A DNA stretch of 64,000 nucleotides from a bacterium (GTDB lineage: Bacteria; Vulcanimicrobiota; Vulcanimicrobiia; Vulcanimicrobiales; SCRA01): assembly GCA_004297985.1 (NCBI GenBank), contig SCRA01000080.1, positions 62,001-126,000 on the forward strand, read 5' to 3'. Shown in pieces: positions 22,663-53,191 of this stretch; position 1 is the first letter of the stretch; each line of letters opens with the position of its first letter. Both the position numbers and the translations under genes were made by a program. Below the pieces are notes generated by a model, which was not told where the DNA came from, did not search any database, and saw only the letters and a list, made by a program, of their open reading frames with translations.

Positions 22663-23667
22663 ATGGCTCTCCGGTCGCGCCTCCTGGCCCCGCTCGTCAC
22701 GTTCCTCATGGTGGCCTGTGTTGCGCTCTCCGCCTCCGCCACGGAGAGGCTCGTGCCCGTGCACGGCGTGATCATCGCCGTGATGCCGAACGGCAACGCG
22801 ATCCTGCGTAACGATCCTGTTCCCGGAACGCTGAATTCACAGTCCATCGAGTACCGCATCCGGAGCGGGCCGAAGCTGACCTCCGGTGAGGAGGTCGACG
22901 CGCTCATCGATATGTCGACTACGCCGTGGTCGCTGCGTCACGTGCACGATGCGGCCGACACCGTGGCCGGCGCCGCGAATGCGCGCGTCACCCGCATCTT
23001 GGGAGCAGGCGATCATCTGCCCGACGTAGCGCTGGTCGATCAGCGTGGGCGCCTCGTGCATCTTGCGGAGTTCATCGGCAAGACGACGGTCGTCAGCTTC
23101 ATCTACACGCGTTGCAAGGACGCCGGCGAGTGCCCCGCCGTCACCGCGAAGTTCCACTACCTGCAGGAGCAGTTTGGTAACGGCCCGTTCCATCTGCTCG
23201 AGATCACGATCGATCCGAAGTACGATACGCCTGCCGTGCTCGCCGGCTACGCCAAGGAGGCCGGCGCCGATCCTGCGCGCTGGTCGCTATTGACTGGTGA
23301 GCCCTCGATGGTCAAGACCGTCGGCGACGACTTCAACCTCTCCGTCGTCGAGGACACGCCCGGCAACTTCCTGCACAACGACGTGACCCTCTTGGTGGCT
23401 CCCGACGGCCGCATCGCGCAGGTCATTCAAACCGACGCTTGGCCGCCGAAGGACGTATTGGCCGCTTCGCGCAATCTGGCCGGCCTCTCTTCGTCGCCGC
23501 TGCGGCGCTTCAACCTCTGGCTCATGTCCGGCGTCATCGCGCTCTGCGGTGGAAGCCAGCAAGTCGCCAGCGGCGTGTTGAGCCTGATCTGGCTCACGTT
23601 GGGCCTCGCCGTCTTCGGCTATCTCTTTTACTGGACGGCGAAGAAGATCTTCATCGAGAACGTCTGA
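22663..23667 (+). CDS. SCO1/SenC-family protein with N-terminal copper-binding-like domain
   Basis: A 334-residue protein with a signal peptide (LLAPLVTFLMVACVALSASA). Residues 30-85 resemble the CusF/copper-binding small beta domain (VPVHGVIIAVMPNGNAILR, then a PG turn). The thioredoxin-like SCO domain spans about 110-275. The copper site has Cys151 and Cys157 (CKDAGECP) separated by five residues rather than the classical three. The distal His is in NFLHNDVTLLV. A hydrophobic helix near the C terminus (VLSLIWLTLGLAVFGYLFY) anchors it. SCO proteins deliver copper to CuA of subunit II, consistent with the caa3 operon beside it. Confidence 0.85.
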   Translation: MALRSRLLAPLVTFLMVACVALSASATERLVPVHGVIIAVMPNGNAILRNDPVPGTLNSQSIEYRIRSGPKLTSGEEVDALIDMSTTPWSLRHVHDAADTVAGAANARVTRILGAGDHLPDVALVDQRGRLVHLAEFIGKTTVVSFIYTRCKDAGECPAVTAKFHYLQEQFGNGPFHLLEITIDPKYDTPAVLAGYAKEAGADPARWSLLTGEPSMVKTVGDDFNLSVVEDTPGNFLHNDVTLLVAPDGRIAQVIQTDAWPPKDVLAASRNLAGLSSSPLRRFNLWLMSGVIALCGGSQQVASGVLSLIWLTLGLAVFGYLFYWTAKKIFIENV

Positions 23668-23696: not shown

Positions 23697-24020
23697 CGGG
23701 GTCGCCCCCGTTCGGGGACGCTCCTCGCTCGCCTCACGCTCGCTCGATCACTTCCTTCGTCGCGCCTCCGCCCATCCGTGGGCTCCCGGCGCGACTCAGA
23801 GACCCCTCAGGGGGCAACCCCGCCACCCCGCGCGAGTTGCATCGGCTTGCGCCTCGACGCCTCGACGGAGCCGTGGGTGAGGAGCGGCGGGCTTCGGGCG
23901 GGCGTGGACCCCGAAGAGGGCCTCCGACGTCCGAGCGGAGCCATGGATGGCGAGAGCGAGGACGCGGCGGAGCAGGAGGCGCGCAGGAGCGCGCGCCGAC
24001 GAGCGTCCCTCGAAGGGGTC
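23697..24020. repeat. composite cloverleaf-type palindromic repeat, copy A
   Basis: The 392 bp between the SCO and MFS genes, which converge, holds no credible gene but strong dyads. The right-hand unit (23907-24020) has an outer stem (GACCCC..GAGGG paired with CCCTC..GGGGTC) and an inner hairpin CTCCG/CGGAG. A conserved ATGGCGAGAGCG follows, and then a GGCGCGC/GCGCGCC hairpin. Bases 23974-24001 are identical to 52506-52533 in copy B. The left part (23697-23815) is a degenerate inverted version of the same unit, and a partial direct one is near 23865-23905. Possible roles: bidirectional terminator, REP-like mobile element, or structured RNA. Confidence 0.7.
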
Positions 24021-24059
24021 TATGCCCGCCTGAAGCCCTAGCGTGGCTCGTTGCAAAGT

Positions 24060-25472
24060 CTACGTGGGAACGGAAGCCGGCGCCGATGCGACGCGCTTGG
24101 GGATGCGCAGCGTCGCGAACATCACGATGAGCGCCACGGCGGCGAAAAGCGTGTAGGCGTGCACGTAGCCCGGTACCGCGGAGATGTGCAGGCCGATGAG
24201 CGCGCCGGCGAACGCGCTGCCGACGATCTGCCCGAAGATCAGGAATATCGAGAGCAGGCCCACGGCGGTGGCGCGCATCTCGTCCGGCGCGGCGTTGGTC
24301 ACGAGATACCGTGTAGGCGCGCCGAGCAGCGAGCCGAAGCCCAGGCCCGCCACGACGAGCGAGGCGATCGCCAGCGGCAGCACGGTCACGAATGCGGCGA
24401 ATGCGGCCATGCCGATGGCCACAAAGAGACTACCGAGGAAGAGCACGGCGCGTGCGCCGACCTTATCGAGCGCGCGTCCCGCCACGGGAACGACGGCGAC
24501 GAAACAGAACGCCGCCAGCGCCGCGAGGCCACCGGCGGAGATGGCGCTCAGACCGTCGGCGGCCATGAGCGCGGCCGGTACGAAGAAGAGCGAGCCCTCT
24601 AAGATGCCGATGCCGATCTCCAGCAGGTTCGCAAGCCGCAAGGTTGGGATGCGCAACAGGAGTGGCGGTACGACGGGGTCCGCGGCCTGGCGCTCGACGG
24701 CGGCGAACGCGGCCAGCAGCACCGCCGCGGCCAACAGCTCCCAGAGCGAGGCGGCGTTGGCTGCGCTGAAGAGATGATCGGTCTGCAGCCGCGTCAGGCC
24801 CGCCGTTCCCGCTAGGAGCGCTGCACCCAGCAAGACGATGCCGGCGAAGTCGAGCGCGCCGCGCCGCGGCGTTCCACCGCGGTGGACGTGGCGCATCGAG
24901 AGCGCGATGACGATGGCCGCCAGGGGCAGGTTGAGGGCGAAGACCCAGCGCCAGTCGAGCACGTGCACGATCGTTCCACCCAGTGCGGGGCCGACGATGC
25001 CGGCCAGACCCCAGATGGCGCCCAACATCCCCAAGGCGCTGCCGCGGCTCTCCTCCGGTACGCGATCGGCGACCGTCGCCGTGGCAACGGGGAAGATGCC
25101 GCCGGCGCCGGCGGCTTGGACGATGCGGCCGACGATCAACGTCTCGTAGCTGGACGCGAGGATCGCGATCAGCGATCCTACCGCGAAGAGCGTCACGTCG
25201 AGCATGTAGATTGTACGCCGTCCGTAGACGTCGGAGAGCTTCGACATCACGGGAATGGCCACGACGTAGGCCAGCAGGTAGGCGGTGAAGATCCACGAGA
25301 GCGAGCGCGCCCCGACGTCGAACTGCGCGCCGATCTGATGGAGTGCCGGAGAGAGCGCCGAGAGATCGAGCGCACCCATGAAGACGCCGAGCATCAGCGT
25401 GAGGAGCAGCGGCATGACCTCGCGCACCCCGCGGCGGCCCGTTTCCGGGCGGCTCTCCGTTGTCGAACCCAT
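24060..25472 (-). CDS. MFS transporter, DHA2-like drug exporter
   Basis: A 470-residue protein with about 14 hydrophobic segments. The first helix ends in GALDLSALSPAL with the Asp typical of drug/H+ antiporters. Motif A is KLSDVYGRRTIYML, and motif C reads IWGLAGIVGPALGGTI. It probably exports hydrophobic compounds in exchange for protons. It lies 13 bp downstream of ctaB in a ctaA-ctaB-MFS run, and its 3' end faces the repeat element. The substrate is unknown; sharing a transcript with haem A biosynthesis is not evidence for haem transport. Confidence 0.87.
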   Translation of the reverse strand: MGSTTESRPETGRRGVREVMPLLLTLMLGVFMGALDLSALSPALHQIGAQFDVGARSLSWIFTAYLLAYVVAIPVMSKLSDVYGRRTIYMLDVTLFAVGSLIAILASSYETLIVGRIVQAAGAGGIFPVATATVADRVPEESRGSALGMLGAIWGLAGIVGPALGGTIVHVLDWRWVFALNLPLAAIVIALSMRHVHRGGTPRRGALDFAGIVLLGAALLAGTAGLTRLQTDHLFSAANAASLWELLAAAVLLAAFAAVERQAADPVVPPLLLRIPTLRLANLLEIGIGILEGSLFFVPAALMAADGLSAISAGGLAALAAFCFVAVVPVAGRALDKVGARAVLFLGSLFVAIGMAAFAAFVTVLPLAIASLVVAGLGFGSLLGAPTRYLVTNAAPDEMRATAVGLLSIFLIFGQIVGSAFAGALIGLHISAVPGYVHAYTLFAAVALIVMFATLRIPKRVASAPASVPT

Positions 25473-51117: not shown

Positions 51118-51230
51118 GGAGATGCCATCCGCGCTCGGTGTGCCATCGTCCTTCCTGCCCCATCCCGCTGCGCGGAAGATTTCGCGGCGAGCAGTCGAGG
51201 GGCGCGGCGCACGCCGTCGAAGCCCCGGCC

Positions 51231-52406
51231 ATGGCATACGCTGGTACCGACTTCTACGATCTCGACGCCTCACTTACCGCGGAGCAGCGCCAGGTGCGCG
51301 ACACCGTGCGCGCCTTCGTCGACGACCGTGTCCTCCCGGTCATCGAAGACGCCTGGCTTGGGGGGCGCTTCCCCGCCGAGCTGGTGCCGACGCTCGGCGC
51401 GCTCGGCGTCTTCGGCGCCAACCTCCCGGAGGAGTACGGTTGTGCCGGGCTCGACAACGTGGCCTACGGTCTGATCATGCAGGAGCTCGAGCGCGGTGAT
51501 TCGGGCCTGCGCTCCTTTGCCAGCGTCCAAGGGGCGCTGGTGATGTATCCTATCTACGCCTTCGGCAGCGAGGAGCAGCGCCGGCGCTGGCTGCCAGCGC
51601 TGGCAAAGGGAGAGAAGATCGGCTGTTTCGGCCTCACCGAGCCGGATTACGGCTCGAATCCCGCCGGCATGCTTACCCGCGCGCGGCGCCGCGGCGACCG
51701 CTGGCTGCTGAGCGGCAGCAAGATGTGGATCACCAACGGGTCGCGGGCCGATGTGGCCGTGGTCTGGGCTAAGACCGACGACGGCGAGGCCGACTCGATT
51801 CGCGGTTTCCTGGTCGAACGCGGGATGCCCGGCTTCACCGCGCGCGACCAGAAAGGGAAGCACTCGCTGCGGGCCTCGGACACCAGCGAGCTGGCGTTCA
51901 ACGAGGTGGAGCTGCCGCTGGAGAGCATGCTCCCTAAGAGCGGGGGGCTGAAGTCGCCGCTGATGTGCCTAACGCAGGCGCGCTACGGCATCGCGTGGGG
52001 GGCAATCGGCGCAGCGATGGCCTGCTTCGAGCAGGCGCTGGAGTACAGCAAGACGCGCGTGATGTTCGACGTCCCGATCGGCGCCAAGCAGATCCAGCAG
52101 GAGCACCTCGCGGAGATGATCACGGAGATCACCAAGGCTCAGCTCGTGGCTCTCCAACTGGGGCGGCTCAAGGACGCCGGCACGATGAAGCCCCAGCAGG
52201 TGAGCCTGGCCAAGCGCAACAACGTCGACATGGCATGCGACGTGGCGCGCGCCGCGCGGCGCATGATGGGCGCCAACGGCATCCTCGCGGAGTACGTCCC
52301 GATGCGTCACATGGCCAACCTCGAGTCCGTCTACACGTACGAGGGGACGCACGACGTTCACGCGCTCATCCTCGGCCAAGCGCTCACCGGGATGAGCGCG
52401 TTCTAA
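51231..52406 (+). CDS. acyl-CoA dehydrogenase, glutaryl-CoA-dehydrogenase-like
   Basis: A 391-residue flavoenzyme. SGLRSFASVQGALVMYPI carries the Arg and SVQ...M-PI pattern of glutaryl-CoA dehydrogenase. CFGLTEPDYGSNPAGM is the FAD region, KMWITNGSRADV the middle domain, and TYEGTHDVHALILGQALTG holds the catalytic Glu as in GCDH. GCDH oxidises and decarboxylates glutaryl-CoA to crotonyl-CoA at the end of lysine, tryptophan and benzoyl-CoA breakdown. This would suit the benzoate-CoA-ligase-like gene in the window. The ATG at 51231 has no strong Shine-Dalgarno sequence. Confidence 0.87.
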   Translation: MAYAGTDFYDLDASLTAEQRQVRDTVRAFVDDRVLPVIEDAWLGGRFPAELVPTLGALGVFGANLPEEYGCAGLDNVAYGLIMQELERGDSGLRSFASVQGALVMYPIYAFGSEEQRRRWLPALAKGEKIGCFGLTEPDYGSNPAGMLTRARRRGDRWLLSGSKMWITNGSRADVAVVWAKTDDGEADSIRGFLVERGMPGFTARDQKGKHSLRASDTSELAFNEVELPLESMLPKSGGLKSPLMCLTQARYGIAWGAIGAAMACFEQALEYSKTRVMFDVPIGAKQIQQEHLAEMITEITKAQLVALQLGRLKDAGTMKPQQVSLAKRNNVDMACDVARAARRMMGANGILAEYVPMRHMANLESVYTYEGTHDVHALILGQALTGMSAF

Positions 52407-52420
52407 CCAACGCGTCCCGG

Positions 52421-52572
52421 AAGCACTGGGGCGACCCGCGTTTCCCCCACGGGGGCTCCGAGGCGCGCGCGGAGCCAGGATGGCGAGAGCGCGCGCGAGG
52501 GCAGTAGGAGGCGCGCAGGAGCGCGCGCCGACGCGCGGCCCCGTGGGGGGAATGTGGGTCGCCCGCAGTGCG
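52421..52572. repeat. cloverleaf-type palindromic repeat, copy B
   Basis: The 166 bp between the two converging genes is almost entirely an inverted repeat. The outer arms (about 52421-52456 and 52537-52572) pair over some 35 bp with few mismatches: GCACTG..GGGCGACCC on the left, GGGTCGCCC..CAGTGC on the right. Inside are a GGCTCCG/CGGAGCC hairpin, the GATGGCGAGAGCG block, and a GGCGCGC/GCGCGCC hairpin. Bases 52506-52533 are identical to 23974-24001 of copy A. The outer stem differs in sequence between copies but pairs in both. Bidirectional terminator, REP-like element or structured RNA are possible. Confidence 0.75.
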
Positions 52573-53007
52573 TTAGATCTTCATCTCCGGGAAGCACTCC
52601 ACGTCGTCGGCTTCGAGCACGTCCAGTAAGTTGGTCATCTGCGGATTGCGCGCGGCGACGGGATAGGTCTTGTAGACGTAGGCGCGGTTGGCGTCGGTGA
52701 CGACGTGGTCCTCGGCCTCCTCGTTCCATGCCGCGCGCAGCTCGTCGGTGAGGCCGGTGCGGTCGCGGAACCAGCGCACGACGTCGTCCTCGCTCTGCGC
52801 CGCCGCGACTACGTCGAGCAGCTCCTGCGGCGAGATCTCGAAGAACGAGAGGAACATCCCGCTCAGTCCGCCGGGCGGATACTCTCCGGAAGTTCCACCG
52901 GGAAGCGCGGCGCGCCACTTGTCGATCGTGCGCGCGAGGACGAGCAGTCCGTCGAGCTTGGCCCGCGGCGACCGGGGCGGGCGAATTGAAAGGTCCAGGG
53001 GCTCCAT
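52573..53007 (-). CDS. DUF5069-family protein
   Basis: A protein of 144 residues from ATG 53007, which has AAGGAG 6 bp upstream; an earlier ATG at 53061 lacks a site. PRSPRAKLDGLLVLARTIDK at the N terminus and the central SFFEISPQELLDVVAAA with DDVVRWFRDRTG are the DUF5069 pattern. Function is not established. The C terminus (LLDVLEADDVECFPEMKI) is intact and its stop abuts the repeat element. Divergent from the serine-hydrolase gene by 184 bp, in which I see no convincing promoter. Confidence 0.82.
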   Translation of the reverse strand: MEPLDLSIRPPRSPRAKLDGLLVLARTIDKWRAALPGGTSGEYPPGGLSGMFLSFFEISPQELLDVVAAAQSEDDVVRWFRDRTGLTDELRAAWNEEAEDHVVTDANRAYVYKTYPVAARNPQMTNLLDVLEADDVECFPEMKI

Positions 53008-53191
53008 CGATGACTCCTTCGGGCGTGAAAACTGGGGAGGCGGTCCGCTCTCCACCTGCACGGTACGTGTGCGGCGGCACTCCGGGCTAGGACCACCGTC
53101 GCAGCGGACACTCCGTGTGCGCAGGAGAACGCAGGCCCCGCCGGGAGTTCACCGGGGAGGCATCGGAGTTGGCGGCGGGAGGACGATTTGC

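Follow-up and report, generated by a model that had tools for sequence, protein, structure and literature searches.

CsrA sponges of the CsrB/RsmZ type are single-locus small RNAs with many sites. Dispersed palindromes of the REP/BIME type (GTAG and CGTC families), which have been thought of as DNA, are hairpins of 20–40 bp with an unpaired tag, and REPs have been reported in dnaE2 genes (PMC3733652). TwoAYGGAY, an orphan RNA that is predicted to bind CsrA, has two loops with the CsrA motif, stems with tandem GA, and an external stem that is poorly conserved (PMC4333381; also PMC2864571); it occurs in Gammaproteobacteria, among others. The element described here joins these two separate subjects.

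The element was noticed in a stretch of 64,000 nucleotides (the window, to which unprefixed positions refer; part of contig C72) of an Eremiobacterota genome that comprises 3.19 Mb in 90 contigs. It belongs to a repeat of ~120 bases with about twenty copies in that genome, and is a dispersed mobile repeat rather than a fixed structure belonging to one gene pair. Overall, we describe it as a dispersed palindromic repeat that resembles REP/BIME sequences but is unusual in its size and anatomy, and which is multicopy, mobile, kept at the 3' ends of genes, and constrained on the strand that carries GGA in its loops. We put the probability of this combined reading, in which a mobile REP-like repeat is under selection for the single-stranded fold of its GGA strand, at roughly two in three. 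Taken separately, that it is a mobile REP-like repeat is very probable, and that the single-stranded fold of the GGA strand is the selected thing is likely.

Like REP/BIME sequences, the copies are dispersed multicopy extragenic palindromes that lie near stop codons in convergent and tandem rather than divergent gaps, form dimers of opposite orientation (11 of 11 pairs in the own genome), hetero-dimers among them, can be in frame within DNA repair genes (dnaE2 included), and are absent from the phages and plasmids searched. Unlike them, the element is about 120–200 nt rather than 20–40, and has a three-way junction, a locus-specific outer stem, and GGA-tipped hairpins in place of a single hairpin with an unpaired GTAG or CGTC tag. 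The number of copies, tens or fewer, is a further difference. Rickettsia palindromic elements (RPEs), too, are palindromic and can be in frame in coding genes, although by description their structure is unrelated (PMC3733652). Like the CsrB/RsmZ sponges, the element carries GGA in the loops of its hairpins (CAGGATG, CANGGATG); it differs in having two sites per copy, dispersed copies, and no promoter that we could find.

The window holds two full copies, A and B, and a diverged one that lies inverted beside copy A, so that the two form a back-to-back (-)(+) pair (Table 1). Scores are from two covariance models: R1, whose training set included copies A and B, and R2, made from copies in nine other genomes that were found using R1. 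Copy A scores 105 bits with R1. An earlier note on this locus, made from the sequence alone, had proposed that the right unit is an outer stem enclosing two hairpins, that the left half is an inverted copy of it, and that the element separates an SCO gene from an MFS gene. All of this was borne out. The right unit folds into a three-way junction at -97.6 kcal/mol (z -5.8; shuffled sequences were never as good), and the left half was recovered by R2 and has a significant fold of its own. For a further partial copy at about 23865, also suggested there, the models give no support, and the motif ATGGCGAGAGCG, taken by itself, shows no significant excess there (26 matches with at most two mismatches in the window, where 21 are expected).

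Table 1. Features of the window. The R2 E-values of copies A and B are not fully independent because R2 was built via R1, whose training set took in both copies; the left copy was in the training set of neither model.
Feature	Position	Strand	Remarks
SCO1/SenC protein, left neighbour of copy A	22663..23667	+	PF02630, E 1.9e-18
Diverged inverted copy (left half)	23700..23819	-	R2 36.7 bits, E 1.3e-5; fold z -5.1
Full copy A, right unit	23904..24023	+	Model positions 1-118; R2 93.0 bits, E 2.4e-17
Pairing arms of copy A, full reach	about 23894-24033		
5' outer arm of copy A, locus-specific	23904..23920	+	Helix 1; pairs with 24007-24023
Hairpin 1 with GA-rich internal loops	23921..23970	+	Helices 2-4
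Tip of hairpin 1, GCCA-TGGA-TGGC	23940..23951	+	CsrA-type CANGGATG
Hairpin 2, holding the 28-base core	23972..24004	+	Helix 5; loop AGGAGC at 23985-23990
3' outer arm of copy A	24007..24023	+	Helix 1; pairs with 23904-23920
MFS transporter, right neighbour of copy A, convergent	24060..25472	-	PF07690, E 3e-52
Acyl-CoA dehydrogenase, left neighbour of copy B	51138..52406	+	PF02771/PF02770/PF00441
Full copy B	52438..52555	+	R2 98.9 bits, E 1.4e-18; fold z -8.2
Pairing arms of copy B, full reach	about 52429-52564		
DUF5069 protein, right neighbour of copy B, convergent	52573..53061	-	PF16798

The consensus consists of a locus-specific outer stem, hairpin 1, whose internal loops are rich in GA, and hairpin 2, which ends in a loop of the AGGA type. 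In a set of 14 copies from the own genome, 95.8% of the cells in paired columns are paired, and both sides have changed in 22 of the 43 pairs. The score for covariation, 0.429, was reached by 0 of 500 shuffles, for which it is 0.160, and is at most 0.114 when the partners are slid. The outer stem (helix 1) has two-sided changes in 13 of 17 pairs. In hairpin 2 every cell is paired, and the stem occurs in the own genome in three compensated versions (GGCGCGC/GCGCGCC, GCGGCGC/GCGCCGC, and GCGGTGC/GCACCGC). The 28 bases at 23974-24001 are indeed identical to 52507-52534 in copy B, as the earlier note had pointed out. However, this "core" is not a signature of the family: it is just hairpin 2 in one of its three versions, and half of the own-genome copies differ there, with compensation. 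In the 87 copies from nine genomes the stem columns are near random. The GGA columns are 99–100% conserved, and the flanking GCC/GGC and the internal-loop GA positions are nearly fixed, although this loop conservation is partly selected for, because the model that found the copies contains sequence information and the named loci were picked by an exact pattern. The GGA loops of the partner repeat families (GCACAGGATGTGC, CCTACATGGATGTAGG) are free of such selection by model or pattern. The invariant part is the GCCA-(N)GGA-TGGC tip together with its GGA/GAGA internal loop; the GA-rich internal loops and the junction are conserved as well.

BLAST locates the element at 15 places in the own genome, and R1 gives 23 matches at E up to 1 (21 at 0.001 or better). 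Several of these copies sit at contig ends, and four contigs of the congener G001 terminate exactly at the boundary of the core, where the matches are core-only. The true copy number is therefore probably higher, because cores shared between copies with different arms broke the assembly. In the phylum, covariance-model matches occur in 75 of 149 Eremiobacterota genomes, and the exact-pattern matches that carry names are mostly Candidatus Eremiobacterota. At E up to 0.01, 16 matches each were obtained in a Chromatiales chromosome and in a Planctomycetota genome, and these are alike in architecture when folded; related structures with CATGGATG hairpins occur at two spirochaete loci. A pattern match in Legionellaceae (L087) does not fold as the element and is taken as chance. 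The phage, plasmid, and E. coli collections that we searched gave zero matches, and viral contigs bearing the short motif did not match the model; an origin in phages or plasmids was accordingly rejected. At least three further families have the same architecture with other cores, GGA loops included (partner elements at L017, L018, L022, and L025; L027:713-823; L011-L013), and often form hetero-pairs with the first family.

The placement of the copies relative to genes is not random. Genes were called with a simple codon model; an NCBIfam scan covered ten proteins, and those that it named (nuoF, nuoG, infB, atpD, alaS) agree with the calls in strand. Across the nine genomes, the gaps that hold elements are convergent in 35 cases, tandem in 41, and divergent in one, compared with 2, 32, and 19, respectively, for those gaps of 100 nt or more in these stretches that hold no element (convergent versus divergent, P 6e-12). 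Within tandem gaps, 37 of 43 elements are closer to the upstream stop codon, at a median of 33 nt, and in 29 of 43 the GGA strand runs antisense to the gene upstream (P 0.03); such counts of orientation are not independent, because the copies within one genome are related. Wherever one gap holds two elements, these stand back to back, with the (-) copy on the left and the (+) copy on the right. This order holds at 11 of 11 own-genome loci and, for G001 and G003, in 10 of 10 stretches, counts in which some stretches are orthologous and some partners are weak (E 0.004–0.006) and at contig ends. At locus L018 the order is kept in three congeners though the families differ. A divergent-promoter role for the spacer of such pairs was rejected, given that the spacers between families 1 and 2 are too short (about 25 nt).

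The 3'-end placement, with its strong convergent excess, and a stem that is long and stable on either strand are what one would expect of a bidirectional transcription terminator, or of a stabiliser of mRNA 3' ends, serving the genes on its two sides. Yet we consider this quite improbable. No T-tract terminator was found in the region of the window, and termination needs neither the GGA nor the GA positions that are conserved. One copy lies between nuoF and nuoG, inside the operon, and another directly after the neighbour of atpD in a same-strand run; termination would be harmful at both places, and the nuoF-nuoG copy in particular argues against such a role. Moreover, the congener G001 manages without the element at the copy-B and L039 loci.

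Comparison of congeners shows how readily the sites and their arms turn over. Locus A is common to the own genome (G000), G003, and G001, where its right arm shows decay. Locus B is empty in G001, where the palindrome is absent, and in G003 it holds an element of opposite orientation adjoining a remnant of the G000 arm. As a general mechanism, insertion into a pre-existing terminator loop was rejected, since at the empty copy-B site of G001 the stop codons are just a few bases apart and a palindrome is lacking. At L017, G000 and G003 share the arms, between which the core is inverted in one relative to the other; at L027 the core is inverted and the arms are wholly different. Between own-genome copies the arms are 51% identical and the cores 85%. 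Together with the turnover of sites, this indicates that the core moves or is exchanged. One copy, at L277:3805-3923 (C85:37804-37922 of the own genome), is even inside dnaE2, which encodes an error-prone DNA polymerase. It is in frame and free of stops, and other alpha chains of DNA polymerase III do not align to the stretch that holds it. A second copy (C85:36268-36388) lies where this gene begins.

This mobility and the lability of orientation, along with the in-frame dnaE2 copy, as reported for REPs (PMC3733652), are also what would be seen with a non-autonomous DNA element that is selfish or neutral. Its GGA-strand fold would then be the single-stranded DNA substrate of a putative transposase, and its position at gene ends would be what purifying selection has left. 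A strand-specific structure suits single-strand recognition, and the GYAG motif that flanks hairpin 2 recalls the GTAG tag of REPs, although it is modelled as paired. Against this, the search for RAYT (PF01797) in the own genome was negative, by which a RAYT-mediated REP of the GTAG class was rejected, and no other mobilising enzyme was identified there. The genes tested between neighbouring copies encode DUF899, PrmC, and SDR proteins and no transposase, so a cargo transposase was likewise rejected. The element has locus-specific outer arms, not the conserved terminal inverted repeats that a MITE of a DDE transposon would have at its ends. Orientation relative to local GC skew is about 49 lagging to 39 leading, without clear bias, and a preference for one replication strand was therefore discarded too. 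On balance, we regard a purely selfish or neutral element as a possibility, somewhat doubtful.

The earlier note had also reasoned that an identical core combined with diverged stems that still pair is what a selected structure would show. A structured, covarying repeat did emerge, and none of the three outcomes that the note would have taken as refutation (no further copies, unpaired stems, placement at random with respect to gene ends) came about; the argument from core identity and arms alone was not sufficient. Diverged yet paired arms are by themselves no proof of selection, because arm-to-arm copying within a palindrome gives mirrored changes too. The L032 orthologues of G000 and G003 have nearly identical cores and a block of adjacent changes mirrored on both arms, which looks like palindrome conversion, and arm pairing may be partly maintained by copying of this kind. 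Taken to its limit, the pairing of the outer arms would be a mutational product of template-switch correction rather than of selection, as could also be argued from arms that differ completely between loci while remaining near-perfect. We regard this as possible but somewhat doubtful: the internal hairpins covary as well, and symmetric copying would not be expected to favour wobble pairs on one strand.

This strand asymmetry of wobble pairs is an independent sign of selection. In arms extended outside the model and aligned symmetrically, G-U mismatches number 64 on the GGA strand versus 29 on the other (P 0.0004); within the model columns the counts are 61 versus 13, although the model itself is biased there. 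Because wobble survives mostly on the GGA strand, it is the fold of this strand that is kept, as RNA or as single-stranded DNA. Of the 183 hairpin loops in the elements, 139 (76%) contain GGA, compared with 24 of 664 loops from flanking background (3.6%); TCC is in just one of the 183. The pattern CA(N)GGA(N)G is matched by hairpin 1 in 75 of 87 copies and by hairpin 2 in 54 of 87; in one genus (G023) the GGA has been lost from hairpin 2 (CACGATG).

For the mobile repeat with a constrained GGA strand, these properties suggest a mechanism. The fold may act at the RNA level, arising in read-through transcripts and in convergent 3' transcripts, and with its two CsrA-type loops each copy could accommodate one CsrA dimer, so that a spreading repeat would scatter CsrA sites at gene ends. 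The folded form could instead be single-stranded DNA; the wobble excess of the GGA strand would also be met in that case. CsrA as the ligand is a tentative proposal, plausible but somewhat doubtful. The own genome encodes CsrA (C23:9909-10064). Among genomes at least 90% complete, CsrA is present in 44 and absent in 2 of those with the element, and present in 20 and absent in 19 of those without it (P 2e-6); this table was put together by hand from two lists, and the association is not independent evidence of function because lineages differ in both traits. The near-complete exceptions are G103 (97% complete, with two element copies and no CsrA match) and G090. The orientation data do not favour CsrA binding, and since the GGA strand is mainly antisense in tandem gaps, those copies would put no GGA loops into the mRNA of the upstream gene. 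A simple mRNA role is made less likely by this orientation and by the loss of GGA in G023.

In the genus of G103 (g28), neither G102 nor G103 has a CsrA match, and the genus offers a natural test of the fate of the loops without CsrA.

By its published description, TwoAYGGAY resembles the element in its two hairpins with GGA loops, tandem GA, and variable outer stem, and the two likely belong to a common class. Its descriptions, unlike the element, involve no repetition, mobility, or 3'-end placement, and the taxa in which the element occurs include Chromatiales and otherwise differ. We therefore also weighed the view that the element is primarily a TwoAYGGAY-type regulatory RNA that sequesters CsrA, its repetition being secondary. 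The match of both hairpins to the CsrA pattern, the agreement in anatomy (PMC4333381), and the association of element and CsrA among genomes are in its favour. In addition, the best match of the TwoAYGGAY covariance model (RF01731) in a Leptospiraceae genome coincides with the element of L073, although with a sub-threshold score (26 of 43 bits). This model stays below its gathering score in all eight genomes searched, the own one among them, and the element was for this reason not filed as RF01731. The mainly antisense GGA strand in tandem gaps and the rapid turnover of sites do not fit sequestration as the main role, and the element stems are very stable whereas the CsrA ligands reported from SELEX had short ones (PMC7652899). 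Sequestration as the main role appears rather doubtful. More generally, a scan of the window against Rfam returned no family at gathering score and nothing convincing at relaxed thresholds, by which membership in a known RNA family was rejected.

Eremiobacterota, Chromatiales, and Planctomycetota thus contain abundant structured elements (with related ones in two spirochaete genomes) for which there is no Rfam match above threshold. They bear on whether REP-like repeats act as RNA and on whether a repeat can spread protein-binding sites to gene ends. A broader idea, which we put forward as speculative and rather improbable, is that a self-spreading repeat class of several phyla brings pairs of CsrA-binding hairpins to gene ends, with TwoAYGGAY as a local form. 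If true, a mobile repeat would shape the CsrA regulon or its buffering.

Two observations concern the surroundings of the elements. In the Chromatiales chromosome (G041; e.g., L200 and L207), long intergenic regions contain several nested palindromes, and a classical GGAGCGGC-TTTAGCCGC REP-like hairpin occurs beside elements. At L027:1001-1182, on the (-) strand, a 6S RNA gene (RF00013, 52 bits) is convergent with a gap that bears an element.
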